From Zoogloea sp. (lineage in GTDB: Bacteria; Pseudomonadota; Gammaproteobacteria; Burkholderiales; Rhodocyclaceae): DNA of 64,000 nucleotides. The DNA is taken from positions 1-64,000 of the forward strand of contig NZ_JAKLLN010000005.1 in assembly GCF_023150065.1 (NCBI RefSeq). Reading direction: 5' to 3'. The position numbers and the translations under genes were made by a program. A model generated the notes under the pieces. It had not been told where the DNA came from, ran no database searches, and saw nothing but the letters and a program-made list of their open reading frames with translations. Below are positions 29,949-51,623 of this stretch, piece by piece; position 1 is the first letter of the stretch, and each line of letters starts with the position of its first letter.

Positions 29949-30056
29949 GGCGGATTTCTTCGATAATTTTTTTGTATACAAAGATTTAGTGAGTTACGGC
30001 AGCTTGGGCGACAGTCGTGTAAGACACCAGAGGCGTCAGATGTCGTCTACTTCACG
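29949..30056 (+). promoter_or_regulatory. Putative attI and integron promoter region
   Basis: This lies between the intI remnant and the first GTTAGGC core, where attI, Pc and P-intI are expected. It contains a perfect 12-bp palindrome, TTTGTATACAAA (29971-29982). A 12-bp inverted repeat, GTAGACGACATC at about 29936 and GATGTCGTCTAC at about 30040, brackets the region. The right copy abuts the recombination core CTTCACGTTAGGC. No confident -35/-10 for Pc. Confidence 0.65.
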
Positions 30057-30071
30057 TTAGGCATCAGCAAA

Positions 30072-30515
30072 ATGCAACGCGTCGTTGATCTGGAGCTCTG
30101 GTCGTTACCAAAGACACCTCTGCTTGAAGGCAAGGCCGTGGCTCAAGCATGTCGCTTGGCCACAAATGTGTCGCCTGAGATCGTTCTCGGTTTGAGTTTC
30201 GTGCCAGATGAAAAAGACATAACGAACCTCGACTTGATTTTTGCAGAGAATCCCTTGATAGAAATCGCATTCAAGAGCTTCTGCCGTGAGCAAGGCCTTG
30301 CAAGCGAGCCAAGCAACACGAATTCGGCGGCACGTTTCATAGCGTCCTCAGAAGGTCAACTTTTGGCTTGGTTGCACTTTCCGGCAGAGCCTGCGGGCAA
30401 AAGCATGGCGCTTTCTGTCTGCCGTTGGGCGGCAAACTCTGGTTATGTCATTCGTTCAGGTCAGAGTGAACACGCCCTCTCGGAATCAGAGGTTGAAGCG
30501 CTATGGGAAGGCTGA
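30072..30515 (+). CDS. Cassette 1 hypothetical protein
   Basis: A 147-residue soluble protein of unknown family, 15 bases after the attI/cassette junction. No signal peptide or membrane segment. Mixed alpha/beta text with three cysteines (AQACRL, KSFCRE, LSVCRWAANSGYV). The stop codon is followed immediately by the R'' box of attC1. As first cassette it would be the best expressed from an integron promoter, if that still works. Confidence 0.75.
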   Translation: MQRVVDLELWSLPKTPLLEGKAVAQACRLATNVSPEIVLGLSFVPDEKDITNLDLIFAENPLIEIAFKSFCREQGLASEPSNTNSAARFIASSEGQLLAWLHFPAEPAGKSMALSVCRWAANSGYVIRSGQSEHALSESEVEALWEG

Positions 30516-30573
30516 TGCCAACATTTCACTCCACGCGACAGCCTTCGGCGGCGCGTGAATTCAGGCGTTAGGC
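30516..30573 (+). other. attC site 1
   Basis: R'' TGCCAAC and R' GTTAGGC frame a stem built on CACGCG/CGCGTG. Length 58 bp. Confidence 0.8.
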
Positions 30574-30580
30574 GCCATCA

Positions 30581-31099
30581 ATGATTCCCAATCTCCCGAT
30601 TGCCACTGACAACATCTATAAGTTCGCATGCTTGTTCGGCCTTGCAATCATCATTGCTTCAATACTCTCCTTCGTTAGCGTCTATTCCTCAACGCTCGAT
30701 AGAAAGGTGGCACTTAGCGAGGTAGTTATTTCTCTTGAAGCCAAGGAGCAACTAACAAAGGCTGAAGAAAACACTCTCGAACTGAACAAGAAGCTTGTTG
30801 AAGTCGCACAGAGAAATGAACGCTTCGCTCAAAGCATCATTGGCGGTGCTTTTGCAGTTGGGTTATTGCTCAGCATTTACGGTGCATATCATTGGCACAC
30901 CAAGATTCAGGCTCGTGATGACTTGCTCGCAACTTTGCAGATTGAAAGAATTCGAGCCGAGATCGCTAAGCTGCAACTTGATACGAATCGACTCAATAGC
31001 TCTGCGGGTGAGCAGACTGAACAGCAAGTAGTCGCTAAGAAAAATAACGTCCGGGTTCAACAGGAAAATGAAACAAAAACTACAGAACATATCGCCTAA
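30581..31099 (+). CDS. Cassette 2 membrane protein with coiled coils
   Basis: A 172-residue protein with two membrane segments (FACLFGLAIIIASILSFVSV near residue 15 and IIGGAFAVGLLLSIYGAYHW near residue 87). Between them (ALSEVVISLEAKEQLTKAEE on) and after them (ATLQIERIRAEIAKLQLDTN) are charged, heptad-like helices that should form coiled coils. No family recognised. The TAA stop is inside the R'' box GCCTAAC of attC2. Confidence 0.75.
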   Translation: MIPNLPIATDNIYKFACLFGLAIIIASILSFVSVYSSTLDRKVALSEVVISLEAKEQLTKAEENTLELNKKLVEVAQRNERFAQSIIGGAFAVGLLLSIYGAYHWHTKIQARDDLLATLQIERIRAEIAKLQLDTNRLNSSAGEQTEQQVVAKKNNVRVQQENETKTTEHIA

Positions 31100-31183
31100 C
31101 ACTGCGGTCAAGGCCGCTCCCTTCGGTCGCTGGGCGCTGCGCGATAAACCGCCGCGCAGCGCCCCTTACCAACAACGTTGGGC
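31094..31183 (+). other. attC site 2
   Basis: R'' GCCTAAC to R' GTTGGGC, 90 bp. GCGCTGCGCG and CGCGCAGCGC form a perfect 10-bp stem. Confidence 0.88.
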
Positions 31184-31196
31184 CTAATACTTAGCG

Positions 31197-31649
31197 ATGG
31201 ATGCTCAAGACCCTCGTCTCCGTGAAATCTGGCTCCAAAAGGTGGTGCCGGTTGTATATCGCCAAGTCCGCCCAGAGCCAGTACTGCTGCGTATTCCTTA
31301 TGCGCAGAACAACTTTGAGTGGGTTCGTGGCGAGAAGCGCCACAAGCCTGACTGGAACGCAAAGTTCAAGTGTTGGGAAACGCCCGTTTCTTGGTTCGAT
31401 GAACTCATCGAGCGAACGCTTCGGAAGTTCGGGAAGGTCTACGTCATTCAGCTCTTTAAAGAACATCAGAAGTGCGCGCCGGCCTGTTGGAATGCAAAAG
31501 GCTTTCATTGTGAGTGCTCTTGCATGGGAGCCAACCACGGATCGGGCCATCCCGGTGGTCGGTGGCATGAGGTTTCAGAGACGTTTGCCTTTCAATGGGG
31601 GGCGCGCAAGTACTCATGCCGGCTTATCACTGCCGATGCTGCCCGTTAG
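31197..31649 (+). CDS. Cassette 3 cysteine/histidine-rich hypothetical protein
   Basis: A 150-residue protein. The N-terminal half reads PEPVLLRIPYAQNNFEWVRG and KPDWNAKFKCWETPVSWFDE, resembling DUF5710-type 'cooked substrate' modules only loosely. The C-terminal half has a tight cysteine/histidine group, CAPACWNAKGFHCECSCMGA with NHGSGHPGGRWHEV after it, that could bind a metal. I have seen this C-terminal pattern only in proteins of unknown function. An overlapping +1-frame ORF in the track (31201-31740) is its shadow. Confidence 0.75.
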   Translation: MDAQDPRLREIWLQKVVPVVYRQVRPEPVLLRIPYAQNNFEWVRGEKRHKPDWNAKFKCWETPVSWFDELIERTLRKFGKVYVIQLFKEHQKCAPACWNAKGFHCECSCMGANHGSGHPGGRWHEVSETFAFQWGARKYSCRLITADAAR

Positions 31650-31718
31650 GCCCAACCCATCATTCCACCGGACCTTGCGCATAGATCCGCGCAAGGCCGG
31701 TGAATTCAAATGTTATGC
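31650..31718 (+). other. attC site 3
   Basis: R'' GCCCAAC to R' GTTATGC, 69 bp. The stem pairs CCGGACCTTGCGC with GCGCAAGGCCGG and leaves one extra base on one strand, as attC sites do. The R' box departs from GTTRRRY at one position. Confidence 0.85.
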
Positions 31719-32290
31719 CTCAAGGAGCCTCTGTGGCTAATATCCCAACATACAAGGCGCTTCAGAAGTGCTATGACGCAAAATCCGCTGAAGTAAAAAG
31801 TCATTTCGGCCATCTTCCCCAGTTAATCGCTGACGGCCTCCCGTATGAAATTGCAATCGCGTACGTTTTCCTGAAAATTGAACAAGCTCAAAACAGAGCA
31901 CTATATGGCGGGGTCGTTAAGGTCCATCGCTGTAATGCGGAGTTCGCAAGGCGTTTGATGAATTTTCAACACCTAACCCGAGATGGGTTCAAAGAGCTCT
32001 ACAAAAATGTATTCGGCCGCGCTCTTCCAAAAGCAACAGCAGATTTAATGGCTGATGCGGAAAGTTCTCGCGACAAAGTTATTCACGGCAAGGATGTAAC
32101 GGATAGTGAGCTTCGTGGAGCTATTGCTGATGTCCTAGCTTATGCTGAGGCCTTCAATTCGGAAGTTAACGACGTTGCAGGCTTTAAACCGCTAGGCAAC
32201 ATGCGCGGCTTTAAGGGACGCGCCGAACCTCTCGACACACGTACTAGCAAATGGTTAATGCGAGGGCTTGGCTTTGGCGTTAAGGCATAA
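31715..32290 (+). CDS. Cassette 4 HEPN-like protein
   Basis: A 191-residue helical protein. Its ATG (31715) lies inside the R' core GTTATGC of the preceding attC, so recombination would place the start codon. AESSRDKVIHGKDVTDSELR contains R-x4-H, the ribonuclease motif of HEPN domains, set in a helix pair as expected. The C-terminus (GFKGRAEPLDTRTSKWLMRG) is a conserved-looking tail that I have seen on HEPN cassette proteins. RNase toxin or RNA-linked defence is inferred; no antitoxin partner is in the same cassette. The stop overlaps R'' of attC4. The track start at 31700 is a GTG. Confidence 0.7.
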   Translation: MPQGASVANIPTYKALQKCYDAKSAEVKSHFGHLPQLIADGLPYEIAIAYVFLKIEQAQNRALYGGVVKVHRCNAEFARRLMNFQHLTRDGFKELYKNVFGRALPKATADLMADAESSRDKVIHGKDVTDSELRGAIADVLAYAEAFNSEVNDVAGFKPLGNMRGFKGRAEPLDTRTSKWLMRGLGFGVKA

Positions 32291-32380
32291 CACTGCAGTC
32301 GAGAGGGACAGCCAACAAGCTGCGCTTGTTCGTCCCCTCCGCGCTTCGCGCTCCGGCTGCCCCTCACTTCCACGTTGGGC
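32285..32380 (+). other. attC site 4
   Basis: R'' GCATAAC to R' GTTGGGC, 96 bp. CAACAAGC and GCTTGTTC/G with the flanking GGGAC and GTCCC make a long imperfect stem. Confidence 0.83.
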
Positions 32381-32404
32381 GCCGCAAATTATGCTTGTCG
32401 CAGT

Positions 32405-32785
32405 ATGGGGAGTAAATTAGTGAATATCGTGCGCCATGCAGTTACGTTAAGTGTCGCCACCCTGGCTCTGGCCATGGCCGGTTGCGCCATTACAAAGGAA
32501 ACCCACATGCCAGATGGGAGCAAGGGTTACAGCATTAGTTGTGACGGCGCGGCGGTAGGAATTAACGTATGTTTTGAAAAAGCAGGTGATCTTTGCGGCG
32601 CCTCTGGTTATGACCTCGTTACTCGAGAAGGTCAAATTATTCCTTTCGGGGTTAGCTCCGCAAGTGTATATGGAACGCCATCACAAATTCAGGGCCAGAG
32701 TTTTGCAACTTATGGTTCATTCAATAGTAAGAGCATAATGATTAGGTGCCGTAACCGGACATCCGGCAGTGTCCCAGAAAATTAG
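32405..32785 (+). CDS. Cassette 5 small lipoprotein
   Basis: A 126-residue protein. The ATG at 32405 gives a lipoprotein signal: TLSVATLALAMAGC with lipobox LAMAGC and the lipidated Cys near residue 26. The mature part has four further cysteines (ISCDGAAVGINVCFEKAGDLC and IRCRNR), likely two disulfides. The +2 residue after Cys is Ile, so outer-membrane sorting is expected. Family not recognised. The TTG start offered by the track is inside attC4. Confidence 0.72.
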   Translation: MGSKLVNIVRHAVTLSVATLALAMAGCAITKETHMPDGSKGYSISCDGAAVGINVCFEKAGDLCGASGYDLVTREGQIIPFGVSSASVYGTPSQIQGQSFATYGSFNSKSIMIRCRNRTSGSVPEN

Positions 32786-32793
32786 AACATCAT

Positions 32794-32863
32794 GCCCAAC
32801 CCATCACTCCACGGGACGCTGCGCGATGAAGCCGAGCATCGCCCGTGAATTCAGATGTTGGGC
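32794..32863 (+). other. attC site 5
   Basis: R'' GCCCAAC to R' GTTGGGC, exact complements of each other, 70 bp, with an ACGGG/CCCGT-based stem. Confidence 0.85.
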
Positions 32864-32881
32864 GTTTATCAAGGAGACACA

Positions 32882-33556
32882 ATGAAAAGGGTTTCATGTT
32901 CTGTTGCAACCATATTCATGGTTGCTATTCTCTTGGCCGGATGCGCCTCTGAGAGAGTGATTTCCCCCAACATATCCGGCTCATCACGCACCGGTCTCAT
33001 AGTCTCTCCCGCAATTCTTGGTGCCGTATACGACGGACGGGCCTCGCAAGAACCGAATGATGCAGCGGCCATCCTTCAAGGCGACCTGAGTCGCATTTAT
33101 GGTACGTCTATTGAGTGGACGGACTATTTCGCAAAAACGCCTGCCGGTCGAGTCTCCGCACGAATCCGAATTGTTACGCTAGGCTCCTCTTTCGGAAATC
33201 GCTTGGTATCTTCAGTAGCCTTCGCAAATGCGGTCGGTTCTGCACAGGCAAGCGCAACAGGCCCTTGGGGCCCTGTTGTTGGTTCTGTATCATCCGAGCA
33301 GTCGGTTCTCGCCGGCTCATTTTCAGGCGAGGGTTGGTGGAATGGAGCTGCGTGGGTTGACTTGGAAGTGCAAGACAATCGAGGGAAAAAGCCAGTTGCA
33401 TTCACAGTGCCTATTGTCGCAGAGCATCGTGAGTCAAATATGTGGGGCTACGCATCGGGAGATAAAGCAGCAAAGGTGGCATGGGATCGCGTCGGAATTC
33501 AACTTACTAGGGCTTTGGATGCAATCGCTCGCACAGTCCGCGACCAACAGCCATGA
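32882..33556 (+). CDS. Cassette 6 lipoprotein
   Basis: A 224-residue protein starting MKRVSCSVATIFMVAILLAG with lipobox LLAGC. The ATG at 32882 has AAGGAGACACA in front, the best ribosome site in the array. The mature part includes RVSARIRIVTLGSSFGNRLV and GEGWWNGAAWVDLEVQDNRG, beta-rich, and ends in an amphipathic helix. Resembles curli-assembly or peptidoglycan-binding lipoproteins only in general layout; no family is claimed. Second lipoprotein in the array. Confidence 0.75.
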   Translation: MKRVSCSVATIFMVAILLAGCASERVISPNISGSSRTGLIVSPAILGAVYDGRASQEPNDAAAILQGDLSRIYGTSIEWTDYFAKTPAGRVSARIRIVTLGSSFGNRLVSSVAFANAVGSAQASATGPWGPVVGSVSSEQSVLAGSFSGEGWWNGAAWVDLEVQDNRGKKPVAFTVPIVAEHRESNMWGYASGDKAAKVAWDRVGIQLTRALDAIARTVRDQQP

Positions 33557-33609
33557 GAAAGCACGCTGCGCGATAAAGCCGCGCAGCGCCGGTTAGCTTC
33601 ACGTTAGGT
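33541..33609 (+). other. attC site 6
   Basis: R' GTTAGGT is clear and GCTGCGCG/CGCGCAGC forms the stem. The R'' box (GACCAAC) is imperfect and overlaps the end of the preceding ORF. Confidence 0.7.
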
Positions 33610-33617
33610 GTCATCAA

Positions 33618-34310
33618 ATGGCCGCCCCAGTTTTCGAGCTAATTGACAACTCCACATTTCGGTTTGGAGAGCGAGTCGTCTCCGGCCATTTCAGCGATCT
33701 GCCGTTTCACGGAAAGTACCGCTATGTGGTGGAGGGAACGTCGGATGAGCGAGCTCGAATTCCCCAGCAGTTATTTTTTCACGACTTTATAGATATTCGC
33801 CCTGCAGATCTTCCGAACGGCATTTCTATTACCCTGCAACGCCCAAGGTCTGAATTTCGGCAGGTCAATTTTGCGGAGATCAAGAAGGTTGATGACCAAT
33901 CTGTACTTGTCATCATCCTGTGCTTTGACTACGTGGACTGGCATCTTCCTATCAACCTTCAGCTCTTTTCCGAGCGCTACCGTGACTCACTTCTGCGCCA
34001 AGTCGACAGCGCGGTTGAGGCTCACATCGACCAAGCCGATTTTGGCCTATTTATCAATTGCTCAATTTCGGTTGCGTCCGACGTCACGTTTCTTGCCGCT
34101 TACCGAAAGGCCGATAGCCAGATACTCGCAACCTACCGAAAGTGTCTTGAAGATCTCTACAAGACGCAGCCAGCCAAAAATGAGACAAAGCCGGCCAAAA
34201 CTGATGATTCTGAGGGGGCGAAGTGGTGGTTCCGTTATGTAATCGTTCCCGTTGTAGGCAGCGGCGCCGTTGCAGCAATCGCTGCGGGATTAATGGCCTT
34301 TGTGAAATGA
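33618..34310 (+). CDS. Cassette 7 tail-anchored hypothetical protein
   Basis: A 230-residue protein, mostly soluble, with one C-terminal membrane segment (YVIVPVVGSGAVAAIAAGLM) followed by only four residues, so it is probably tail-anchored in the inner membrane with its bulk in the cytoplasm. A Lys/Pro-rich linker (TQPAKNETKPAKTDDSEGAK) precedes it. The N-terminal half is beta-rich. No family recognised. Confidence 0.72.
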   Translation: MAAPVFELIDNSTFRFGERVVSGHFSDLPFHGKYRYVVEGTSDERARIPQQLFFHDFIDIRPADLPNGISITLQRPRSEFRQVNFAEIKKVDDQSVLVIILCFDYVDWHLPINLQLFSERYRDSLLRQVDSAVEAHIDQADFGLFINCSISVASDVTFLAAYRKADSQILATYRKCLEDLYKTQPAKNETKPAKTDDSEGAKWWFRYVIVPVVGSGAVAAIAAGLMAFVK

Positions 34311-34314
34311 TGGT

Positions 34315-34383
34315 GCCTAACCTTTCGGCGCACACCGGCCTTGCGCGAAAAGCCGCGCAAGGCCGGTAATCTCCACGTTAGCT
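34315..34383 (+). other. attC site 7
   Basis: R'' GCCTAAC to R' GTTAGCT, 69 bp. ACCGGCCTTGCGCG pairs perfectly with CGCGCAAGGCCGGT around AAAAGC. Confidence 0.88.
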
Positions 34384-34387
34384 GTCC

Positions 34388-35011
34388 ATGGAATCATCAC
34401 TCAAACCAAACCCGAACGGATTTGCAGTTGACCCGTTTGGCTACAGCGCGCTCGCATGGCACAAGTGGGGATTGCTGGCGTGTGCAAATGGCTTCGACAT
34501 AGACATATCCAAGCCGCCAACTGTCGCTGATCTGAAGAATCCAGTTCTTTGGCTATGTCACGCCGATGCGCTAACTGAAGCAGCTATCTGCTTGGTAAAG
34601 AATTCGCCGAATTTTGACAACACATCTCCAGATTTAAGGACGATCTGTCATAGTCAATATCACGCAGTAGCGTTGATGCTAGTCGGCTATAGTCTTGAGG
34701 TCTGTTTGAAGGCCATGGTCTTGATCAAACTTGGACTAGATGAATTCATACGGCAAGAAAGGAGCTATTTTCACCACCGGCTAGAAGAACTAGCTGATTT
34801 CATTCCGGACCTTAATGAGAAGGAGTTGGCGATCTTGAAATGCCTTTCTCACTTTGTTGTTTGGGCCGGTCGTTATCCGGACCCAGGCTCAAAGCGCATG
34901 AGCGATGCAGTGGATGTATTTGAAATATCTGAACAACACAAGATAAATGCCAAAGACCTTTTCTATCTGGCTGCAAAGGTAAGCCAGCATGTCAAGACAG
35001 TTGTTGACTAG
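34388..35011 (+). CDS. Cassette 8 HEPN-like protein
   Basis: A 207-residue helical protein. QYHAVALMLVGYSLEVCLKA is the helix found in many HEPN and AbiV-like proteins (G-Y-x-L-E-x-x-L-K), and RSYFHHRLEELADFIPDL carries an R-x4-H downstream, as in HEPN ribonucleases. It starts only 5 bases after the attC7 core. Together with cassette 4 it makes two unrelated-looking HEPN candidates in one array. Family call is from motif only. Confidence 0.68.
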   Translation: MESSLKPNPNGFAVDPFGYSALAWHKWGLLACANGFDIDISKPPTVADLKNPVLWLCHADALTEAAICLVKNSPNFDNTSPDLRTICHSQYHAVALMLVGYSLEVCLKAMVLIKLGLDEFIRQERSYFHHRLEELADFIPDLNEKELAILKCLSHFVVWAGRYPDPGSKRMSDAVDVFEISEQHKINAKDLFYLAAKVSQHVKTVVD

Positions 35012-35080
35012 ACAGCTAGTCCATCACTCCACTGGGCCTGCGCGAAAAGCCGCGCAGGCCCGAGAAATGAAACGTTAGAC
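35012..35080 (+). other. attC site 8 (last)
   Basis: R' GTTAGAC at 35074 and an 11-bp perfect stem GGGCCTGCGCG/CGCGCAGGCCC. The R'' side (AGCTAGT) is worn. No further attC was found to the right. Confidence 0.78.
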
Positions 35081-35257
35081 GGAAAGTTCATGTATCCATG
35101 GGCGTGCCAACCAAGAAACAGCTCTTTCGTTGTGGACCGCCGACGGCGAGGTTGTCTGCCCGGTTGCTCGGGGTGCAGCTATGCTCATGTGGTCTTTGCT
35201 CCTTCACTCTTCGTCAAAGGCTCTCGGGCAAAGCCAGCATAGGGGAGAAAACGAGCT

Positions 35258-35581
35258 ATGAACCTTCTTTTCGTCTGTAGTGAGAACCGGCTGCGGAGCC
35301 CGACTGCTGAGGAGGTGTTCTCCAAGTACCCTGGCGTCAGTACCATCGGTGCGGGCACCAATGCAGATGCAGAAACAACCGTCTCCGGGGATCTCATTGA
35401 GTGGGCCGATGTGGTCCTGGTGATGGAGAAAAGTCACAGGAACAAGATTTCAAAGAAGTACAAAGAGCAGCTAAAGGGGAAGCGGCTGGTATGCCTGGAT
35501 ATTCCGGACATATACGCACGCATGGACCCAGATCTGGTGAAATTGCTCGAAGCCAGGGTCAAGAGATATGTTCGTTTCTGA
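35258..35581 (+). CDS. Low-molecular-weight protein tyrosine phosphatase-like protein
   Basis: A 107-residue protein that starts MNLLFVCSENRLRSPTAEEV. CSENRLRS is the C-x5-R-S phosphate loop of low-molecular-weight tyrosine phosphatases, and CLDIPDIYARMDPDL supplies the conserved aspartate region (D-x-P). It is shorter than the classical 150-residue enzymes, as is usual for this compact subfamily. GGGGAGAAAACGAGCT precedes the ATG. It is outside the attC array. The 177 bases between attC8 and this gene contain only a poor ORF (35098) and no feature I can support. Confidence 0.78.
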   Translation: MNLLFVCSENRLRSPTAEEVFSKYPGVSTIGAGTNADAETTVSGDLIEWADVVLVMEKSHRNKISKKYKEQLKGKRLVCLDIPDIYARMDPDLVKLLEARVKRYVRF

Positions 35582-35696
35582 ATGGGCGAAAGTAAGCAGG
35601 CGTCCCAGGTGACACCCACGAAACCGCAGCCTTTTGTCTGCGCTTGCGCTTCAACCTCCGGCGCCAAGACCCCAACCCCACGCAGCATTGCGAACA

Positions 35697-36140
35697 ATGT
35701 CAGAAGCCCGGATTCATTGCGATAGTTGCGGGAAGACACTTCCAAACCCTCAGGCTGTTTGTCCAGCTTGCGATGCGCAGCTGGAGCGCGAGTTGAAGAC
35801 CTCCGCAAGTGGCAAACACCTGTGCCCCGTGTGCTCGCAGGGATTCGACAGACCCATCTTTGAACTCTGGCCGCGCGGAGCAAAGTGGTACACCCCAAGG
35901 CAGATGAAGCCGACCTGCCCGCACTGTAAGGCGTTCTTGCTGGATCGGAGAAATCCCCCCCTTCCTGCAAAGCTCATCTGGCTGTTTGCAGGCGTCACCG
36001 TAGTGGGCTACCTGGCGGTTCCGTCGCGTTATGAAGAGCCGGTCTTGGGCGTCATGCTGGCAATCTATGCTGTGGGTTCGTGGCGCTTTCGCGGGATCCG
36101 TGTCAATGACCGAGAGCGCTATGGCAGGGGTGAGGCCTGA
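35697..36140 (+). CDS. Zinc-ribbon membrane protein
   Basis: A 147-residue protein. It begins with a zinc ribbon (IHCDSCGKTLPNPQAVCPAC, C-x2-C...C-x2-C), has two more CxxC pairs (LCPVCS, TCPHCK), and ends with two membrane helices (LIWLFAGVTVVGYLAVPSRY and VLGVMLAIYAVGSWRF). The ATG at 35697 is preferred because the track start adds a low-complexity Pro-rich stretch. Function unknown. Confidence 0.62.
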   Translation: MSEARIHCDSCGKTLPNPQAVCPACDAQLERELKTSASGKHLCPVCSQGFDRPIFELWPRGAKWYTPRQMKPTCPHCKAFLLDRRNPPLPAKLIWLFAGVTVVGYLAVPSRYEEPVLGVMLAIYAVGSWRFRGIRVNDRERYGRGEA

Positions 36141-36213
36141 CCCTCCAATGAAGCCCCCGTCAAGCAGCCTTGTCCCAATCACCGGCCGTCAGGCCGGTTT
36201 TCCTTGATCCGAC

Positions 36214-36570
36214 TCACCCCTGCTGAAACTCAAACAACCCCGGGGCCCCTTCCTTGTACACCCGCAACCACATCAACGTAGCCGGCACCAGGGCCCGGAT
36301 TGCGAACCACAGGGCTTCGTCGTGGGTTGCCGGATCGGCGTTGAGTTGTTCAGGAAGGGCGCGCCAGGTGTTCCAGTCGAGTTCGGCGAACTGCTGGCGC
36401 TGGGCGTCGGGGAGGTCGGCGAGGTTGGTGGCCATGACGCCCACCAGGCGGGCCATTTCGGCGCGGGCCAGGCGGGAGCGGCGGAAGGTGGCTTCGTCCA
36501 TGTCTTCGGCCAGCACCAGGGCGTCGGTGCCGGCGTTGACGATGTTGGCGAGGAGGGCGGCGATGATCAT
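36214..36570 (-). CDS. Hypothetical protein, last gene of the nifV-fix operon
   Basis: A 118-residue helical protein (MIIAALLANIVNAGTDALVL start; RLARAEMARLVGVMATNLAD; ends MWLRVYKEGAPGLFEFQQG). Its ATG overlaps the TGA of the TPR gene (ATGA), so it is translated by coupling. The much longer track ORF is a frame extension. No cysteine, no signal peptide, no family known to me. Operon position says nitrogen-fixation accessory, with no further evidence. Confidence 0.7.
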   Translation of the reverse strand: MIIAALLANIVNAGTDALVLAEDMDEATFRRSRLARAEMARLVGVMATNLADLPDAQRQQFAELDWNTWRALPEQLNADPATHDEALWFAIRALVPATLMWLRVYKEGAPGLFEFQQG

Positions 36571-37130
36571 TGGGTGCCGCCTTTCTTGAGGCGATCCAGG
36601 TAGCTGTCGCCCGTGGGGCCGGGGCGTTTGCCGGGCCGGGTGTCGGGGGCGGAGGCGTCCTTGAGGCTGGCGATGACGCTGGCGCCCATGTTGTCGGCGG
36701 GGTCGAGCTGGGCGGCTTTTTCGAGCAGGGCCTGGGCTTCGGCCCGGTCGCCGCGGCGCAGCCGGATGAAGGCCAGAGCCTTGAGGGTGAACAGCCAGAA
36801 GCGGGCCGGGCCGATGGCGCTGAAGTCGGCGTCGCCGCCCTGGACTTCGCGCCAGTGGCGGCCGATGCGGGCTTGTCCGGCGGCGGCATGCAGGCCGTCG
36901 CGGGCGCAGCGTTCGGCGTCTTCGAGGCGCTTGCGGTAGAAGTAGAACTTGTACTGGGCGAAGTACACCGGCAGGCAGTCGGGGGCCGACAGGCGGGCGC
37001 TCCACAGCAGGGCTTCGGCCTTGGTGGGGTCGGCGTGGGCGGCGGCGGCTTCGTGGAGCAGCCGGTTGACGCTCTCCGGCGCGTCACCGCCGAAGAGCGC
37101 CCGGGAGCTTTCGCCGGTAAAGAGGTTCAC
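36567..37130 (-). CDS. TPR-type protein in the nifV-fix operon
   Basis: A 187-residue protein. A GTG start at 37130 overlaps the stop of the ferredoxin gene (GTGA), and its own stop overlaps the next ATG. Helical repeats of TPR type are visible: TKAEALLWSARLSAPDCLPV, FYFYRKRLEDAERCARDGLH and LALAFIRLRRGDRAEAQALL-like text (KALAFIRLRRGDRAEAQALL). The C-terminus is disordered and Pro/Gly-rich (APDTRPGKRPGPTGDSYLDR). A protein-binding scaffold for a nif or Fix component is the likely role. Confidence 0.78.
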   Translation of the reverse strand: MNLFTGESSRALFGGDAPESVNRLLHEAAAAHADPTKAEALLWSARLSAPDCLPVYFAQYKFYFYRKRLEDAERCARDGLHAAAGQARIGRHWREVQGGDADFSAIGPARFWLFTLKALAFIRLRRGDRAEAQALLEKAAQLDPADNMGASVIASLKDASAPDTRPGKRPGPTGDSYLDRLKKGGTQ

Positions 37131-37450
37131 CAGACGGCCGCCGGTGCCTGCAGGCGGGTGACCACTTCGTCGCCTTCCAGGTGTTTGTCGAAGATCTCGA
37201 CCACGTCGTCCTTGGTGACGCCGGCGTACATCACGCCTTCGGGGTAGACCAGCACGTTGGGGCCGCTGTCGCAGGGGCCGAGGCAGCCCGAGTAGGTGAC
37301 GCCGATGTGCTCGTAGGCGTTGCGCTTCTGCAGCTCGCCCCAGAAGGTCTGCAGAATTTCGTTGCAGCCCTTGGCGGCGCAGGAGCCACGGGGGTGGCCG
37401 GGGGGGCGCTGCTGGGCGCAGACGAAGACGTGTTTTTTCGGTTTTGCCAT
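37127..37450 (-). CDS. Thioredoxin-like [2Fe-2S] ferredoxin
   Basis: A 107-residue protein of the Shethna protein I/thioredoxin-like [2Fe-2S] ferredoxin family. Cluster cysteines follow C-x12-C (CAQQRPPGHPRGSC) and C-x3-C (GCLGPCDSGPNVLVYPEG). In Azotobacter a protein of this family is co-regulated with nitrogenase. Here it lies in the nif-fix operon and could be an electron partner for FixABCX or NifJ, or a protective protein; the sequence does not decide. Confidence 0.87.
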   Translation of the reverse strand: MAKPKKHVFVCAQQRPPGHPRGSCAAKGCNEILQTFWGELQKRNAYEHIGVTYSGCLGPCDSGPNVLVYPEGVMYAGVTKDDVVEIFDKHLEGDEVVTRLQAPAAVW

Positions 37451-37484
37451 GATGCTTCTCCGTTGGGGTGATCCGGCCTGGGGC

Positions 37485-37943
37485 TCAAGCGGATGCGACG
37501 CGGTCGATGAGCTTTTCGAGTTCGGCCACGTGCTCGGCCTCTTCTTCGGCGAACTCGGTGGCCATGCGCTTGACCTTGATGTTGTTGCTGACCGCGGCGA
37601 TGCCGGCGTAGAAGGCGTGGCCGCGGCGCTCGGCCAGCAGCGCCAGCTCCAGGGCGCCGAGCACGTCCAGGAAGCCGTCGACGCCTTCCCAGCCGGCGTT
37701 CTCGGGGCTGATGCCGTCGGGCCAGCGCAGCTGGTCGGGGCGCAGCTCGGGGACGACCCGGAAGCCGCCCCGTTCCATGGCCTCGGCCAGGTGCTTGCGC
37801 GAGAAGCCGGCCATTTTCCGGAAGAACTCCGCCACGTCGGTGTTGCCGGCGGTCTTCATGTCTTCCGTCAGCGACTCGTAGTGGCGGGCGGCCTCCCGCT
37901 CCAGCTGGATGGCGTGGGCGAGAAACAGGTGGATGTCATCCAT
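37485..37943 (-). CDS. Ferritin/rubrerythrin-like diiron protein
   Basis: A 152-residue four-helix protein. Helix pairs HLFLAHAIQLEREAARHYES and MATEFAEEEAEHVAELEKLI carry Glu and E-x-x-H residues in the ferritin-like arrangement, with FFRKMAGFSRKHLAEA and LLAERRGHAFYAG as the other two helices. There is no rubredoxin domain. In a nif operon it may store iron or scavenge peroxide/oxygen near nitrogenase; that is inference. It follows fixX by 15 bases. Confidence 0.78.
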   Translation of the reverse strand: MDDIHLFLAHAIQLEREAARHYESLTEDMKTAGNTDVAEFFRKMAGFSRKHLAEAMERGGFRVVPELRPDQLRWPDGISPENAGWEGVDGFLDVLGALELALLAERRGHAFYAGIAAVSNNIKVKRMATEFAEEEAEHVAELEKLIDRVASA

Positions 37944-37958
37944 GATGGGGTCCGTTTC

Positions 37959-38255
37959 TCAGCCGAACTTGAACAGGATGCCGTGCCCGCCGCGGGGGTA
38001 TTCCCATTCCACGTTGGACAGCTCGGTGCAGATGATCCGGCAGCTGCCGCATTCCAGGCAGCCGTCGGTGATCAGGGTGACCGCGCCGTTGCCTTCCGCC
38101 TTGTAGCAGGCGGCGGGGCAGACGTAGGTGCAGGACTGGCTCTTGCATTCGTTGCGGCACAGATCCGGCTGGCGGATCTTGATGTGCGGGCGGCCGTGGT
38201 CGACCTTGTAGCGGTTCTGGAAGAGTTTCTCTTCCACATTCACGACGGTGCTCAT
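37959..38255 (-). CDS. fixX: Ferredoxin-like protein FixX
   Basis: A 98-residue ferredoxin of the FixX family. CKSQSCTYVCPAACY and CLECGSCRIICTEL are visible, the second being a normal four-cysteine motif. It works with FixC (ETF:quinone oxidoreductase-like). The ATG at 38255 overlaps the fixC stop, and the track start five residues upstream is less likely. In FixABCX, this complex bifurcates electrons from NADH to quinone and ferredoxin/flavodoxin. Confidence 0.94.
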   Translation of the reverse strand: MSTVVNVEEKLFQNRYKVDHGRPHIKIRQPDLCRNECKSQSCTYVCPAACYKAEGNGAVTLITDGCLECGSCRIICTELSNVEWEYPRGGHGILFKFG

Positions 38256-39556
38256 CTGAAGGCCCTCCACAGCTTGAATGCGTCGCCCGCCAGGCCGGCC
38301 AGGCTGCGCGATTTACGGAAGCTGGAGAAGATTTCCTTCTCCTTGGTTTTCTTGTCGATGCCGTCCACCGTCAGCATGGTGCGGGCGGCGCGGTTGACCA
38401 GCTCGGGGTAGGTGGTGAAGAACTGGCTGTTGTCGTGGAACACGCTGGGCATGTCCCGGTACTTGTGCAGGTCCTTCATCACGAAGGATTCGTCCAGGGC
38501 GGCCTTGTAGCCGGCCAGCTGTTTGGCCTTGAAGCCCTTGCCGGCGGCCTTGGCAGCGATGGCGGTTTCGGCGGCCAGGCGGCCGGTGGTCATGGCCAGG
38601 TTGGAGCCTTCCCGATGCACGGCATTCACGAAGCCGCCCGAGTCGCCGACGATCATCCAGCCGTTGCCGAAGGTCTTGGGCACGGCGTGGAAGCCGCCTT
38701 CGGGGATGAGGTGGGCGCAGTATTCCTTCATCTCGCCGCCGGCGATCATGGGGGCGATGGAGGGGTGGGCCTTCATTTTCTCCAGCATGGTGTAGGGCGA
38801 GGTGCGGTTGGGGTTGCCCTTGAAGTCGGAGAGCATGCAGCCGACGCCCAGGGTGATCGAATCCTTGTTGGTGTAGAGAAAGCCGGTGCCCATCAGGCCG
38901 TCGGTGATCTTGCCGAACATCTCGATCACCACGCCCTCTTCGTCCTTGACGTTGAAGCGGGCCTCGATGGTTTCCTGGGGCATGAAGAGGATTTCCTTCA
39001 CCGCCAGGGCCACGTTGCCGGCCTGGATCTCGCCGTGGAAGCCGGCCTTGCGGGCCAGGGTGGAGTTGACCCCGTCGGCCAGGATCACCACGTCGGCAAA
39101 CACTTCGCCGCCCTGGCGGTCGCAGCGCACGCCCACCACCTGGTCGCCGTCCATGATCAGGCTGTCCACCGTGGTCTCGCAGATCACCAGGGCGCCGGCC
39201 TCCTTCACCTTCGACGAGAACCACTTGTCGAACTGGGCGCGGATGATGGTGTAGCGGTTGTAGGGGGGCTTGTTGTAGTCGTCGGAGCGGAAGTGGGTGC
39301 CGACGAAGGATTCGTCATCCAGCACCCACATGCGCTGCTCGATGATGTGGCGCTCGAGGGGGGCATCCTCGCGGAAGTCGGGGATGATCTGCTCCAGGGC
39401 GTTGGCGTACAGGATGGCGCCCTGCACGTTCTTCGAGCCGGGGTATTCGCCCCGCTCGATCTGCAGCACCGACAGGCCGGCCTTGGCCGCGGTGTAGGCA
39501 GCGGCGTTGCCCGAGGGGCCCGCGCCGACAACGATGACGTCGAATTTCTCGCTCAT
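38252..39556 (-). CDS. fixC: Flavoprotein-quinone oxidoreductase FixC
   Basis: A 434-residue FAD protein. It starts MSEKFDVIVVGAGPSGNAAA, a Rossmann GxGxxG FAD site, and has ADVVILADGVNSTLARKAGF and GNGWMIVGDSGGFVNAVHRE, typical of FixC/ETF-QO. It receives electrons from FixAB and reduces quinone and, with FixX, the low-potential branch. The track ORF of 778 residues is the same frame running on into fixB antisense text. Confidence 0.95.
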   Translation of the reverse strand: MSEKFDVIVVGAGPSGNAAAYTAAKAGLSVLQIERGEYPGSKNVQGAILYANALEQIIPDFREDAPLERHIIEQRMWVLDDESFVGTHFRSDDYNKPPYNRYTIIRAQFDKWFSSKVKEAGALVICETTVDSLIMDGDQVVGVRCDRQGGEVFADVVILADGVNSTLARKAGFHGEIQAGNVALAVKEILFMPQETIEARFNVKDEEGVVIEMFGKITDGLMGTGFLYTNKDSITLGVGCMLSDFKGNPNRTSPYTMLEKMKAHPSIAPMIAGGEMKEYCAHLIPEGGFHAVPKTFGNGWMIVGDSGGFVNAVHREGSNLAMTTGRLAAETAIAAKAAGKGFKAKQLAGYKAALDESFVMKDLHKYRDMPSVFHDNSQFFTTYPELVNRAARTMLTVDGIDKKTKEKEIFSSFRKSRSLAGLAGDAFKLWRAFR

Positions 39557-39576
39557 GATGGGTCTCCGGTGGGCGC

Positions 39577-40674
39577 TCAGGCGGCCTTGCGGCTGCGCAT
39601 GGCAATGTGTTCGCGGAAGGTGTCGGTGAGCACCGGCAGCACCTGCATGGCGTTGCCGACGATGCCGTGGTGGGCGAAGTCGAAAATCGGGGCGTTGGCG
39701 TCGGTGTTGATCGCCACGATCACGTCGGCGCCCTCCATGCCCACCCGGTGCTGGATGGCCCCCGAGATGCCGGCGGCGATGTAGAGCTTGGGGCGCACCG
39801 TCTTGCCGGTCTGGCCCACCTGACGCTCCGCATCCACCCAGCCGGACTGGACCACCGGGCGGGTGGCGCCCACCTCGGCGCCGAGCACCTTGGCCAGGTC
39901 CCAGATCAGCTTGAAGTTGTCGGGCGTCTTGAGGCCCTTGCCGCCGGACACGATGATGTCGGCGTAGGCCAGGTTGACCTTGTTGCTGTTCTCGTCGGCG
40001 ATGAAGTCGAGCAGCTTGGTGACGATGTCGGTTTCGATCATGCCGAGGGTGTCCTCGACGATGCTGCCGCTGCGTGCCGGGTCGGCGTCGGGCATGCGCA
40101 TCACGCGGGGGCGCACGGTGGCCATCTGCGGCCGGTAGGCCAGGGTCATGATGGTGCACAGCAGGGAGCCGCCGAAGGTCGGGCGGGTGGCGGCCAGGGC
40201 CCGGGTGGCCGGGTCGATGCGCAGCTCGGTGCAGTCGGCGGTGAGGCCGGTGGCCAGGGTGGTGGCCACCGAGCCGGCGAGGTCGCGGCCCATGGTGGTG
40301 GCACCCAGCAGCACGATCTCGGGCTGGTACTTGTTCACCAGGTCGGTCATGCCCTTGGTGAAGGGCTCGTTGCGGTAGCCCTTGAGCACCGGGTCGCGGA
40401 CGATGTAGCAGTTCTCGGCGCCGAAGGTGTAGGCCTCCCGGGCGATGGTGTCGAGGGGTTCGTCGGGGCCGCCCATGATCACGCCGGACAGGGACACCCC
40501 CAGGGTGTCGGCCAGCTTGCGGCCTTCGCCGAGCAGCTCCCAGGACACCGAGTGGGCCTCGCCCCGGTCGTGTTCGATGAACACCCACACGCCCTTGTAG
40601 GCTTTCAGGTGCTCGGGCAGTTCCAGGTTGCGGCCGCCCCGGGCGGCGGGCTTCTTGACTTCGGCGTCGCTCAT
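39577..40674 (-). CDS. fixB: Electron-transfer flavoprotein alpha subunit FixB
   Basis: A 365-residue ETF alpha-type protein. The C-terminal FAD domain has [40 protein letters not shown] and [20 protein letters not shown], the usual ETF-alpha motifs, and [20 protein letters not shown] starts the N-terminal domain. [16 protein letters not shown] is a short basic leader seen in some nif FixB proteins. Partner of FixA; 31 bases separate the two. Confidence 0.95.
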
Positions 40675-40705
40675 GGCAGGTTTCCTTTCGCGTCTTGTCG
40701 TGGGG

Positions 40706-41554
40706 TCACACCGAGGCCTTGGCGAGGATGTCGCGCTCAAGGGTCGGGTGCTGGGTGAAGATCTTCTGGATGACGTTGAGGGCCACATCCCTCGGGGTGG
40801 CGTCATCGACGGACTGCATCAGGGCCTTCTCGGCGCGGGGCGTCGGGCCAAAGACCTTGCTCACCACCGTGGGCGAGCCCTTCAGGCCGATCTTGGTGAC
40901 GTCCTCGATGCCGGCGGCCTCCTTGTTCCACTTGCGCACCGGGTAGCGGGCGGCGTGGATCATGTTTTCCAGCGGGGCGAAGCGCATCTCGTTGGTGCCT
41001 TCGAGCATGGTGATCAGGCAGGGCACGGCGGTCTTCAGCACCTGCACGCCGCCTTCGGCGCGGCGCTCCACGGTGATGGTGTCGTTCTCCAGGTCCAGGT
41101 CGGCGATGCGCGATACGTAGGTGAGCAGCTGCAGGCCCAGGCGCTTGGCGATGCCGGGGCCCACCTGGGCGGTGTCGCCGTCGATGGTCTGCTTGCCGGT
41201 GAACACGATGTCCACCTTCTGCTCCTTGCTGATCTGGCGCACCGCGGCGGCCAGGGCGTAGGAGGTGGCCAGGGTGTCGGCACCGGCGAAGGAGCGGTCG
41301 GTGACCAGCACGGCGTCGTCGGCACCGAAGGAGATGCACTTCTTCAGCGCGTCCTCGGCCTGGGGCGGGCCCATGCACAGCATGGTGACCTTGCCGCCGA
41401 ACTTGTCCTTGAGGCGCAGGGCTTCTTCCAGGGCGAACAGGTCGTAGGGGTTGACGATGGCCGGTACACCCTGGCGCATGATGGTGTTGGTCACCGGGTG
41501 GACGCGGATCTGCGCCGAATCCGGGACCTGCTTGATACAGACGACGATGTGCAT
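40706..41554 (-). CDS. fixA: Electron-transfer flavoprotein beta subunit FixA
   Basis: A 282-residue ETF beta-type protein, starting [40 protein letters not shown] and [20 protein letters not shown] are the nucleotide/flavin contact regions; FixA carries the bifurcating FAD and meets NADH. First of the four fix genes, 17 bases after nifW. Confidence 0.95.
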
Positions 41555-41571: not shown

Positions 41572-41904
41572 TTAGCTGGCGGAGGGGAGGGTGGCGCGCA
41601 GGCTGTCGAGGCTGACCTGCTGGCGGCCTTCGGTCTCCTGGAACACCTTGAAGACCTTTTCCTGGGCCGGGGTGGAGCGCACGAAGTCGTCGTAGGCGGC
41701 GACCAGGTGGCTGCGGTAGCGGCCGAACAGCTCGCTGCCGGTCAGGGCGCTCAGGTCGGCATCCCGGCGCAGGTACTGATAGAAGCGCTTGAGGATGTGC
41801 AGCCGGCTCACATGGACCACCTTCTGGTCGAAGGGCACGGCAAAGAAGTGGAGGAATTCCTCTGCGGAGGAGAGCTTGGCGAGTTCGCCGGTCAGTTCGT
41901 TCAT
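41572..41904 (-). CDS. nifW: Nitrogenase-stabilising/protective protein NifW
   Basis: A 110-residue NifW. The family core is present: LAKLSSAEEFLHFFAVPFDQ, then VVHVSRLHILKRFYQYL. NifW binds the MoFe protein during late maturation and supports activity under oxygen. The start at 41904 lies 4 bases after the cysE stop; the track extends upstream in frame. Confidence 0.93.
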   Translation of the reverse strand: MNELTGELAKLSSAEEFLHFFAVPFDQKVVHVSRLHILKRFYQYLRRDADLSALTGSELFGRYRSHLVAAYDDFVRSTPAQEKVFKVFQETEGRQQVSLDSLRATLPSAS

Positions 41905-41908
41905 GGCG

Positions 41909-42727
41909 TCAGGCTCCTGGTGCGGTGGGGGCGGCGGCCTTCCAGCTACCGTCAAAGGTGGGTTGCGAGCAGGTGTCGTCGCAGGTCCGGCAGGCGCCGT
42001 CTGCATGGGTGGGTTCGCCCTTGAGCTGGGCGATTTCCCGTTCCATCTGGGCGATCCGGTCGAGCAGGCAGCCAATCGCCTTGCCGACCGGGTCGGGTAT
42101 CTGGTGGTGGTCCAGGTCGATGCCGTGGGCGATGCGCCGCCCTTCCTTGGGCAGCACCATGCGGCCGGGGATACCGACCACCGTCATGCCGGGGCGCACT
42201 GCGTCGATGACCACCGAGTTGGCCGCCACCCGGGCGTTGTCGCCCACGGTGATGGGGCCGAGGATCTTGGCGCCGGCGCCCACCACCACCCCGTTGCCGA
42301 GGGTCGGGTGGCGCTTGCCGGGGTTCCAGGTGGTGCCGCCCAGGGTGACGCCGTGATACAGGGTCACGTCGTCACCGATCACCGCCGTCTCGCCGATCAC
42401 CACGCCGGCGCCGTGGTCGATGAAGAAGCGGCGGCCGATGACGGCACCCGGATGGATGTCCACATTGGTCACGAAGCGGGCCACGAAGGACAGGGCGCGG
42501 GCGGCGTAGCGCCAGTTGCCCCGCCACAGGCGATGGGCCACCCGGTAGAGCATCAGGGCCTGCACGCCGGGGTAGATGGTGAGCAGCTCCAGGGTGTTGC
42601 GGGCGGCCGGGTCGCGGGCAAAGACGCAGGCCACGTCTTCGCGCAGGGTGGCGAAGAAGCCCGGCGTGGCGCCCTCGGCGGCGACGCTGTCGGCGAGGAT
42701 CTTCATGTCGGGTTCCCTGGGGCTCAT
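41909..42727 (-). CDS. cysE: Nif-associated serine O-acetyltransferase (CysE/NifP)
   Basis: A 272-residue SAT with left-handed beta-helix hexapeptide repeats ([40 protein letters not shown]). It makes O-acetylserine for cysteine, meeting the sulfur demand of Fe-S assembly; the nif copy is called nifP in Azotobacter. A C-terminal tail adds a cysteine group, CRTCDDTC, not needed for SAT activity. The ATG (42727) overlaps the nifV stop as ATGA. Confidence 0.92.
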
Positions 42728-43863
42728 GATGCGCTGCCCTCGCAACGGCTGACTTCAAGGAGGAAGCGGGCCAGCTCGCCGGCGGAAGGGGAGCGCTTGG
42801 TGCAGGTGGCGTGGTCGCGGATGCGTTCGAGCAGGCCGTGGGCCTCCTGGTCGGACACCAGCACGCCGAGCTGGGCGTAGGCGGCAATCACCGCCCGGGA
42901 GCCGGAGTGCTTGCCCAGCACGGTGCGGTGGCTGCGCCCCAGCTCGGCGGGGTCGAAGCCCTGGTAGGTGCGCGGGTCCTTCAGCAGGCCATCCACGTGC
43001 AGGCCGGCCTCGTGGGTGAACACAGCCTCGCCGACGATGCTCTTGTTGGCGGCCACGCTGCGCCCGGAGGCTTCGGCCACCAGGGCCGAGATGGCCGGCA
43101 GGGCGTGGGTGTCGATGCCGCAGTCGATGCCGTGGAGGTGGCGCAGGCCCATCACGATCTCTTCCAGCGGGGCGTTGCCGGCGCGCTCACCCAGGCCATT
43201 GACGGTGGTGTTGGCGTGGCTGGCGCCGGCCCGGAAGGCCGCCAGGGTGTTGGCCGTGGCCAGGCCCAGGTCGTCGTGGGCGTGCATCTCGATGTCCATG
43301 TCCACCCGGCGGCGCAGGGCGGCGATGGCGTCGTGGGTGGAGAAGGGGTCGAGGATGCCGAGGGTGTCGGCGTAGCGCAGGCGCGTGGCACCGGCCCGCT
43401 GGGCGGCCTCGGCCACCCGGGCCAGGAAGGACGGATCGGCGCGGGACGAATCCTCGCAGCCCACCGACACGGCGTAGCCCAGGTCACGCCCTTGGCGCAC
43501 GTAGCGCCCCACCCGCTCCAGCACCCAGTCGCGGCTGCGCTTGAGCTTGGTGGTGATATGGATGTCGGACACCGGGATGGACAGGTTGAGCGTATCCACC
43601 GGGCACTGGCGGGCGGCGGCCAGATCGGTGTCGGTCATGCGGCACCACACCATCAGGCTGGCCGGCAGGCGCATGCGGGCGATCTCGCCGATGGCCTCGA
43701 TCTCCACGGCTCCCATCGCCGGAATGCCAATCTCCATCTCCTGCACCCCCACATCGGCGAGGGCCTGGGCGATGGCGCACTTTTCCTCGACGGTGAAGGC
43801 CACGCCAGCGGTCTGTTCGCCGTCGCGCAGGGTGGTGTCGTTGATGGTGGGCAGCGGGTTCAT
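42724..43863 (-). CDS. nifV: Homocitrate synthase NifV
   Basis: A 379-residue alpha-isopropylmalate/homocitrate synthase family protein. It starts [20 protein letters not shown], with metal-binding [20 protein letters not shown] and [20 protein letters not shown]. It makes homocitrate, the organic ligand of FeMo-co. It is the first gene of the nif-fix operon, with the sigma-54 promoter about 20 bases upstream of its transcript start. Confidence 0.95.
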
Positions 43864-43892: not shown

Positions 43893-43909
43893 AGCAAAGG
43901 CCGTGCCAT
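43893..43909 (-). promoter_or_regulatory. Sigma-54 (-24/-12) promoter for nifV-cysE-nifW-fixABCX
   Basis: On the minus strand, ATGGCACGGCCTTTGCT matches the -24/-12 consensus at all conserved positions (TGGCACG-N4-TTGCT). GG at 43907-43906 and GC at 43895-43894 have the required spacing. The start point would be near 43882, about 19 bases before the nifV ATG. Confidence 0.93.
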
Positions 43910-44000: not shown

Positions 44001-44016
44001 TGTCGGGTTCCGCACA
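44001..44016 (-). promoter_or_regulatory. NifA upstream activator site (TGT-N10-ACA) for nifV
   Basis: TGTCGGGTTCCGCACA is a perfect TGT-N10-ACA site 94 bp upstream of the -24 GG, the normal distance for NifA. Its flank, GGCTTTGTCGG, recurs at the iscS and nifE sites. Confidence 0.88.
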
Positions 44017-45480: not shown

Positions 45481-46652
45481 GTTTAAAACTGACCAGGGGT
45501 ACCGGTTGAGTTTTGACCAGGGGCGATAGCCGCCCGTCATTCAGACGGCTGTGGATAAGTCTATCGGGTTTTCCTTCCTGGAAACCTCCCTCCACACCAA
45601 TGGCGAGATGCGTGTTGTCGATGTGCCCTCCGCGCAGGGCGCATCGGGACTCCGTCAGAAGGGCTCCGTGTCCTCAGCCGCTCCCGGCGCTCGAACTAGT
45701 GGTTGCGGGCCACACTTACCAGGCAGGTGCTGGAGACGTGCCCCGGCTCTTCCACGTAGCCGGCGAACGCCGTCACCATGGGCATCAGTTGCGGCTGCTC
45801 GTGCTCAAGTATCTCGGCAACCGAGAGCGCGTACTCCGGATGACGGATTTCCTGCCAGAGGGCCTGGCAGCGGGCCAGCAGCCAGGCGTTCAGCTCCGCG
45901 AAGCTACTGAACCGCTTCCTGCCAGATGCGCCGCCGGCTGTCCTGCACGTTCTTCTCGGCGACGCCTTTCTCTCAGCCACTGGCGACGTTGCAGAAATCG
46001 GTGTCAAACGGGTAGTGCGAACACATCGCCGCAAAGCGGGCATTGACCACCCGACCCTTGCCCTTCTTGATCCTGTCGACGGCGGTCTTCATGTTGTCGT
46101 AGATCCCCTGCCGGGGAATGCCGCCCAGGGCCGCAAAGTTCCGCGTGTGGGCATCGAGCAGCATCTCGTGGCCCTGGCTGGGTTAGGCGACCAGCACGAA
46201 GGCGCGGCTCGGCGCATTTGCCCCCACCTCAAGTCGCCAGTCCCGAATGAAGTCGGTGAATACGGTATAGCCCCCGTGGAGCCCAAGCCCCTGAGTTCGG
46301 CCAGCAGTGCCTTGCCGCTGCGACGGTCCCGCCTGGGCGGCCGGGCGTCCGCTTCAAGGGCCTGGATCAAGGTGGCCTGGTACGGCCCGAGCTTCCCCGG
46401 CGTGGACTCCCGCCGGTAAGCCGGCGACGCCCCCTCCGCGGCCTTCAACCACTTCTTCACCGTGTTGCGCGACAAACCCGTCCGCCGTGAAATCTCCGAA
46501 CGGGACAGTCCTCCCGGTAATACATCCGTCTGACCTTGCCCCGCATTTCCATGGTGATCACCTCGCTTCCTCTGCCTAAAAAAGAGGCAGGGAGGTTAAA
46601 CACCCTGGTCAAATTTCAGCCGGAAGTCACCCTGATAGATAGTCAGTTTTCG
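45481..46652 (-). mobile_element. IS21-family insertion sequence remnant
   Basis: The outer ends are related inverted sequences: the left end reads AAAACTGACCAGGGG then GGTTGAGTTTTGACCAGGGG, and the right end on the other strand reads AAAACTGACTATC, CAGGGTGAC and CGGCTGAAATTTGACCAGGG. Such repeated ends are usual for IS21. Between them only a damaged istA remains; istB, which should follow it, is absent, so an internal deletion has occurred near 45531-45690. Confidence 0.75.
45697..46552 (-). pseudogene. istA: IS21 transposase istA, frameshifted and truncated
   Basis: An IstA can be followed across three frames: MEMRGKVRRMYYRE at the start, then (after a shift) GLSRSEISRRTGLS-type text into SRNTVKKWLKAAEGASPAYR, then MLLDAHTRNFAALGGIPRQG with IYDNMKTAVDRIKKGKGRVV, and finally HPEYALSVAEILEHEQPQLM, ending VSVARNH with a stop. 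Full IstA is near 500 residues; the C-terminal DNA-binding part is missing. Confidence 0.85.
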
Positions 46653-51498: not shown

Positions 51499-51514
51499 AG
51501 CAACTTCGGTGCCA
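51499..51514 (-). promoter_or_regulatory. Sigma-54 (-24/-12) promoter for the isc operon
   Basis: On the minus strand, TGGCACCGAAGTTGCT fits the -24/-12 consensus with GG and GC 12 bp apart. Start of transcription would be near 51488, 28 bases before the iscS ATG. Confidence 0.92.
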
Positions 51515-51607: not shown

Positions 51608-51623
51608 TGTCGGCTTCCACACA
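51608..51623 (-). promoter_or_regulatory. NifA upstream activator site (TGT-N10-ACA) for the isc operon
   Basis: TGTCGGCTTCCACACA is a perfect NifA site 95 bp upstream of the -24 GG. Flank GGCTTTGTCGGCTTTGTCGG recurs at nifE. As it is in the space shared with nifA it could also act on nifA, which starts 294 bp to the right. Apart from this, the promoter above and the weak element below, the 456-bp gap has no gene. Confidence 0.88.

Follow-up and report, generated by a model that had tools for sequence, protein, structure and literature searches.

An FeSI-type ferredoxin and a diazotroph-restricted TPR protein behind fixX in Zoogloea: a candidate accessory pair for nitrogenase

Introduction

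FeSI, or Shethna protein I, is a [2Fe-2S] protein that, although known since the 1960s, has no role assigned to it. In Azotobacter vinelandii its gene is located within the nif cluster, the crystal structure paper gives Cys 11, 24, 56, and 60 as the cluster ligands, and the homologue from Clostridium interacts with the MoFe protein (PMC8561814). NafH, whose gene is co-transcribed with nifW and nifZ in A. vinelandii, was the first factor known to bind the immature MoFe protein, and a nafH deletion strain has no recognised phenotype (PMC6016461). NafT (Avin_01560), another protein encoded in a nif cluster, binds the damaged MoFe protein (PMC9968304).

Here, we analyse the end of a nif operon of Zoogloea that bears on the first two of these proteins. 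In the window, that is, the whole 64-kb stretch of DNA that was analysed, the genes nifV, cysE, nifW, fixA, fixB, fixC, and fixX are followed on the minus strand by genes for a ferritin-like protein, a ferredoxin, a TPR protein, and a small protein (Table 1). The ferredoxin shares with FeSI of A. vinelandii (Avin_01520, PDB 5abr) the thioredoxin-like [2Fe-2S] fold, the four ligand cysteines, the C-terminal Trp, and the location of its gene in a nif cluster, and the two align end to end over 107 residues. Unlike the A. vinelandii gene, that of Zoogloea sits behind fixX and the ferritin-like gene and overlaps the TPR gene. One clade of the TPR family, clade W, has the same gene slot as nafH of A. 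vinelandii, and is likened to NafH by gene order and not by sequence. The window copy (TPR-A) is of a different clade with a different address. NafT is a nif-cluster protein like the members of the block, and has no counterpart in it. A first-pass annotation had proposed that the four genes behind fixX could form an electron or oxygen-protection module for FixABCX and nitrogenase, with the products of the last three made in fixed ratio. We argue that the FeSI-type ferredoxin and TPR-A are the core of the block and probably help to build or maintain nitrogenase.

Table 1. Features of the nifV-fix operon in the window, from the promoter region to the last gene.
Feature	Position	Strand	Remarks
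NifA-type upstream activator TGTCGGGTTCCGCACA	44001..44016	.	TGT-N10-ACA match
Sigma-54 (-24/-12) promoter TGGCACGGCCTTTGC	43894..43908	-	About 30 nt 5' of nifV; exact match to TGGCACGNNNNTTGC
nifV	42724..43863	-	First gene of the operon; orthologues compared
cysE-type serine acetyltransferase	41909..42715	-	Hexapeptide repeats
nifW	41572..41904	-	PF03206 3e-34
fixABCX span	37959..41554	-	
fixA	40706-41554	-	
fixB	about 39577-40686	-	
fixC	38252 to about 39547	-	
fixX	37959-38255	-	Ends 15 bp before the ferritin-like gene
Ferritin-like (rubrerythrin family) protein	37485..37943	-	152 aa; PF02915 6.5e-10; 2oh3 3.9e-20
FeSI/Shethna protein I-type [2Fe-2S] ferredoxin	37127..37450	-	107 aa; NF041613 2.8e-35; 5abr 8e-30
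GTGA stop/start overlap, ferredoxin/TPR	37127..37130	-	9/9 Zoogloea genomes
TPR-A protein	36567..37130	-	187 aa, GTG start; undescribed diazotroph-specific TPR family
ATGA stop/start overlap, TPR/small	36567..36570	-	9/9 Zoogloea genomes
Small all-helical protein, putative nif accessory	36214..36570	-	118 aa; no Pfam/NCBIfam match

Results

The operon is preceded by a putative sigma-54 promoter. An exact match to TGGCACGNNNNTTGC is present once in the window, where simple arithmetic for both strands with equal, independent bases gives an expectation of about 0.03. The TGT-N10-ACA motif is found six times against 6.4 expected by chance; by frequency alone it is at chance level, and the site upstream of nifV is given weight because of its position 5' of the sigma-54 promoter. 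Given this promoter region and the lack of a convincing sigma-70 promoter in the four-gene block, the four genes are probably co-expressed with nifV under the control of NifA and RpoN. In another genus, NifA-dependent expression of TPR-A is shown by the clade A orthologue of Paraburkholderia phymatum, Bphy_7735, which drops about 56-fold in nodules of a nifA mutant (log2FC -5.82; PMC8305402). No convincing classical terminator was found in the block, and the small gene is followed on its own strand by a 7-bp GC stem that lacks a U run. The contig also carries nifH and nifD, about 35 kb beyond the window. Elsewhere in the window, a second sigma-54-like site with one mismatch (51500-51514, minus strand) occurs with a TGT-N10-ACA motif (51608-51623) 5' of a nifS-nifU-iscA-hscA-fdx operon, between this operon and nifA, and transposase-like remnants lie at 46015-46580, between nifV and the hscA-fdx genes.

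The four reading frames behind fixX and the two stop/start overlaps are exactly where the first-pass annotation placed them, all on the minus strand, and both overlaps are retained in each of the Zoogloea genomes compared. The overlaps suggest translational coupling, but they are no proof of the fixed ratio that had been read from them. Named relatives with 85-98% identity of the TPR protein assign the organism to Zoogloea. The order from fixX to the small gene is common to nine Zoogloea genomes, and each of the four genes shows purifying selection in the Zoogloea comparison (median dN/dS 0.15 for the ferritin-like gene, 0.13 for the ferredoxin, 0.29 for TPR, and 0.39 for the small gene). Other nifD-carrying Zoogloea lack the block, so that the nif genes are arranged in at least two ways within the genus. 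The four genes also do not form a single module: neither the ferritin-like gene nor the small gene is a constant member, and the conserved core is the ferredoxin-TPR pair.

The region 3' of the small gene (30000-36200) is a variable stretch with a partly lower GC3. In two other Zoogloea, truncated copies of the 3' end of the small gene with about 90% DNA identity are found some way downstream (L076:14939-15067 and L077:10706-10816), which gives the appearance of a DNA insertion behind the small gene. A low-molecular-weight phosphatase-like gene (35258-35581, plus strand) adjoins the block, and L077 has a shortened copy of it next to the truncated copy of the small gene.

The ferredoxin matches the FeSI model NF041613 end to end, but its score of 120.8 bits is below the equivalog cut-off of 195, and it is therefore filed as FeSI-type and not as the Azotobacter equivalog. 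It contains cysteines at positions 11, 24, 29, 56, and 60, and the four ligand columns are invariant in the homologue alignment. By location it is a nif-cluster ferredoxin, sharing its operon with nifV and nifW. Strong FeSI homologues were found in 33 of 48 diazotrophs and in 1 of 18 non-diazotrophs. Of 83 nif-associated homologues, 82 retain the C-terminal Trp (window 37130-37138). As a docking site for TPR-A it was rejected: the residue is equally conserved where no TPR gene is adjacent, and so gives no evidence for contact with the TPR protein.

The TPR protein is poorly served by sequence models. The Pfam TPR model finds one repeat, at best 21.4 bits and thus below the cut-off of 27, and the NCBIfam search returned generic TPR noise alone. 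The assignment is nevertheless secure because of the predicted fold: the AlphaFold model has three TPR hairpins (helix pairs) with a core pLDDT above 90, and Foldseek matches it with a probability of 1.00 to CTPR3 and other designed or natural TPR structures (TM 0.72-0.84 by target length, E about 0.004-0.03). The inner helix of the third repeat is the best conserved part, with K117 and R125 each at 99%. The two terminal proteins, to which the first-pass annotation had given no function, have no assigned family, and neither of them has a match in PADLOC or PHROGs. Since neither Pfam nor NCBIfam contains a model specific to the TPR family, its members carry the annotation "hypothetical protein". 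NafU was rejected as the A. vinelandii equivalent of the TPR protein, as it is reported to be an inner-membrane, SlyB-like protein; NafT was likewise rejected, both for the TPR and for the small protein, as no PDB sequence match was found.

In a sample of 369 class-level genomes, the family profile (E<1e-15) detects the TPR family in 26 of 32 nifD-positive and 2 of 337 nifD-negative genomes (Fisher p 6e-32, relatedness ignored). Of the two nifD-negative genomes with a match, G301 contains the entire cluster nifV-cysE-TPR-nifW-nifZ-nifM-clpX, so its nifD was probably just missed in recovery, and G139 is an 81% complete genome. The TPR family is an undescribed, diazotroph-restricted family.

The tree of 114 family members contains three clades that correspond to three addresses in the nif genes, labelled by their neighbour genes (20 of the 114 members have no recognised neighbour). 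Clade A (support 100/99) contains all 65 copies behind a ferredoxin gene or fixX, clade W (100/99) all 17 copies directly 5' of nifW, and clade B all 12 copies behind hesB/nifB; with support of 94/81, clade B is less secure. The window copy belongs to clade A, and the same genome has a clade B copy at contig position 81957, with an iscA/hesB-type gene (itself behind nifB) on one side and nifZ on the other. Clade W genes are located between cysE and nifW in the order cysE-W-nifW-nifZ-nifM-clpX. The nafH region of A. vinelandii is presumably likewise flanked by cysE and by nifM-clpX, and one clade W locus (L258) has the full A. vinelandii-like order around it. As the clade W slot is the nafH slot, we infer from this synteny that NafH belongs to clade W. 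In one genome (G309, L050:561-1058 and 1495-1992) the order is cysE-TPR(W-like)-FeSI-TPR(A), with both clades flanking a single ferredoxin gene, an arrangement that is possibly a natural link between the two addresses.

Within the best 80 named TPR loci, FeSI is found directly 5' of TPR-A in 53 (PARTNERSHIPS), and 37 of these 53 ferredoxin-TPR loci, across the Pseudomonadota, have the GTGA overlap. The location of the pair allows a reading in which FixABCX is the partner: FixX would pass electrons to FeSI, scaffolded by TPR-A, and from there to NifH. In Betaproteobacteria the ferredoxin and TPR genes lie directly behind fixX in the same operon, and fixX is on the same strand in 61 of the 80 loci on the above list, which is biased toward Betaproteobacteria. 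TPR-A also stays behind fixX after loss of FeSI: in nodulating Paraburkholderia and in Cupriavidus the TPR gene directly follows fixX without an adjacent ferredoxin gene. The nodulating Paraburkholderia also indicate that FeSI and TPR-A are not obligate partners. Against this reading, FixX is present in 12 of 48 diazotrophs, fewer than the 33 with FeSI, and most carriers of the TPR family lack FixX. Methyloversatilis, Uliginosibacterium, and Methylococcus have nifW-(ferritin-like)-ferredoxin-TPR without fix genes. In the class sample, TPR-A occurs in 6 of 11 FixX-positive and 7-8 of 21 FixX-negative diazotrophs (the range reflects G300, which is uncertain and lies on a long branch); it is thus present in about half of the FixX-positive class genomes, and in most of the Betaproteobacterial fix operons retrieved. 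A role as the electron outlet of FixABCX is therefore unlikely. Of the module originally proposed for FixABCX and nitrogenase, the link to nitrogen fixation is supported and the specificity for FixABCX is not: the common denominator of FeSI and TPR-A is nitrogenase.

The ferritin-like gene is an optional member of the block, with strong matches in 4 of 48 diazotrophs. In the helix-B motif of its product, Ser48-R-K-His51, the Glu of ExxH is replaced, and all aligned relatives have Ser or Ala at this position. The window protein keeps the other ligands by motif position (Glu17, Glu105, and Glu135/His138, in helices A, C, and D), while in its relatives these are partly lost, the Methyloversatilis type lacking more of them. 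Because of the Ser or Ala in helix B, a canonical di-iron site is doubtful. The closest structure, a COG1633 rubrerythrin-like protein of Magnetospirillum magnetotacticum (PDB 2oh3), is homologous over 144 residues and also lacks the helix-B Glu. Protection against oxygen or oxidative stress, with the ferritin-like protein scavenging iron or peroxide and FeSI acting in the manner of Shethna protein II, would fit the rubrerythrin family match and the presence of FeSI, a [2Fe-2S] protein, in a diazotroph that tolerates oxygen. This function is improbable for the block: the ferredoxin is FeSI and not FeSII, with a thioredoxin-like and not an adrenodoxin-type fold, the ferritin-like gene is rare among diazotrophs, and the loss of a canonical di-iron ligand weakens the idea further.

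The small protein is predicted to be all-helical (pLDDT 94) and has no significant sequence or fold match in Pfam, NCBIfam, PDB, or the fold search. Its resemblance to HEPN-fold proteins is weak, and an assignment as HEPN toxin (MNT-HEPN, PDB 7ae6) was rejected: the fold match is non-significant (E 0.23, TM 0.57), the RX4-6H motif is missing, and the sole histidine (83) is not conserved. Close relatives are found in nif clusters at differing positions: near nifHDK behind SIR2-fdx (L068, L070), in Ideonella as a gene convergent with TPR-A (L124, L132, L134), and in Methylococcus on a nif plasmid; weaker relatives occur outside nif clusters. Including remote relatives, the family is weakly enriched with nifD (8/32 vs 19/337 genomes, p 9e-4), and strong matches in the class sample are confined to the window genome and G363. 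By these gene neighbourhoods, the small protein appears to be a patchily distributed nif accessory protein. A TIGR01616 "nitrogenase-associated protein", which may be NafT, is encoded at another site of the genome (L067:11012-11461). At L067:3419-4637 (contig 207, about 87.4-88.6 kb), a nif-linked SIR2-like protein that has no NCBIfam match and a plant-type ferredoxin are encoded together; this pair recurs between nifZ/nifS and nifHDK in many diazotrophs, and SIR2 relatives are found on many rhizobial plasmids.

That the four genes are chance passengers of the operon without a role in nitrogen fixation is very unlikely overall, and already unlikely for the ferredoxin-TPR pair, since the patchiness of the ferritin-like and small genes and the variable downstream region are outweighed by purifying selection on all four genes, the strict association of the TPR family with diazotrophs, and the repeated occurrence of small-protein relatives in nif clusters of other orders.

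Discussion

In our best reading, to which we give an even chance, the operon closes with an accessory pair for nitrogenase, FeSI and TPR-A, that would act in maturation or repair of the MoFe protein, accompanied by two lineage-specific extras. TPR-A would be an adaptor that binds the MoFe protein or its precursor via the conserved inner helix with K117 and R125, and FeSI the redox partner that TPR-A brings to the MoFe protein. The electrons of FeSI may then be used in reductive maturation of the P-cluster or in repair of damaged MoFe protein, with the ferritin-like and small proteins as possible auxiliaries. Binding of the MoFe protein or its precursor by TPR-A is suggested, by analogy, by its presumed kinship with NafH, which binds the immature MoFe protein, and a part for FeSI by the interaction described for its Clostridium homologue.

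A wider scheme for the whole family is more tentative, and we regard it as rather doubtful. Here, three TPR adaptors would be dedicated to nitrogenase, clade A with FeSI, clade B with a HesB-type carrier and NifB, and clade W (NafH) with NifW and NifZ, and each would dock its neighbour onto nascent or damaged nitrogenase. If true, a single adaptor family would coordinate the supply of cofactors, the maturation of the P-cluster, and redox maintenance.

The new element is a TPR family restricted to diazotrophs, with three clades that match three addresses in the nif genes; one of these addresses is the slot of nafH. With FeSI genetically tied to this family and one of its clades in the slot of nafH, two loose ends are joined into one testable hypothesis on the assembly or maintenance of nitrogenase. 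FeSI and its TPR partner may also be a missing accessory pair for the transfer of nitrogenase into other hosts.
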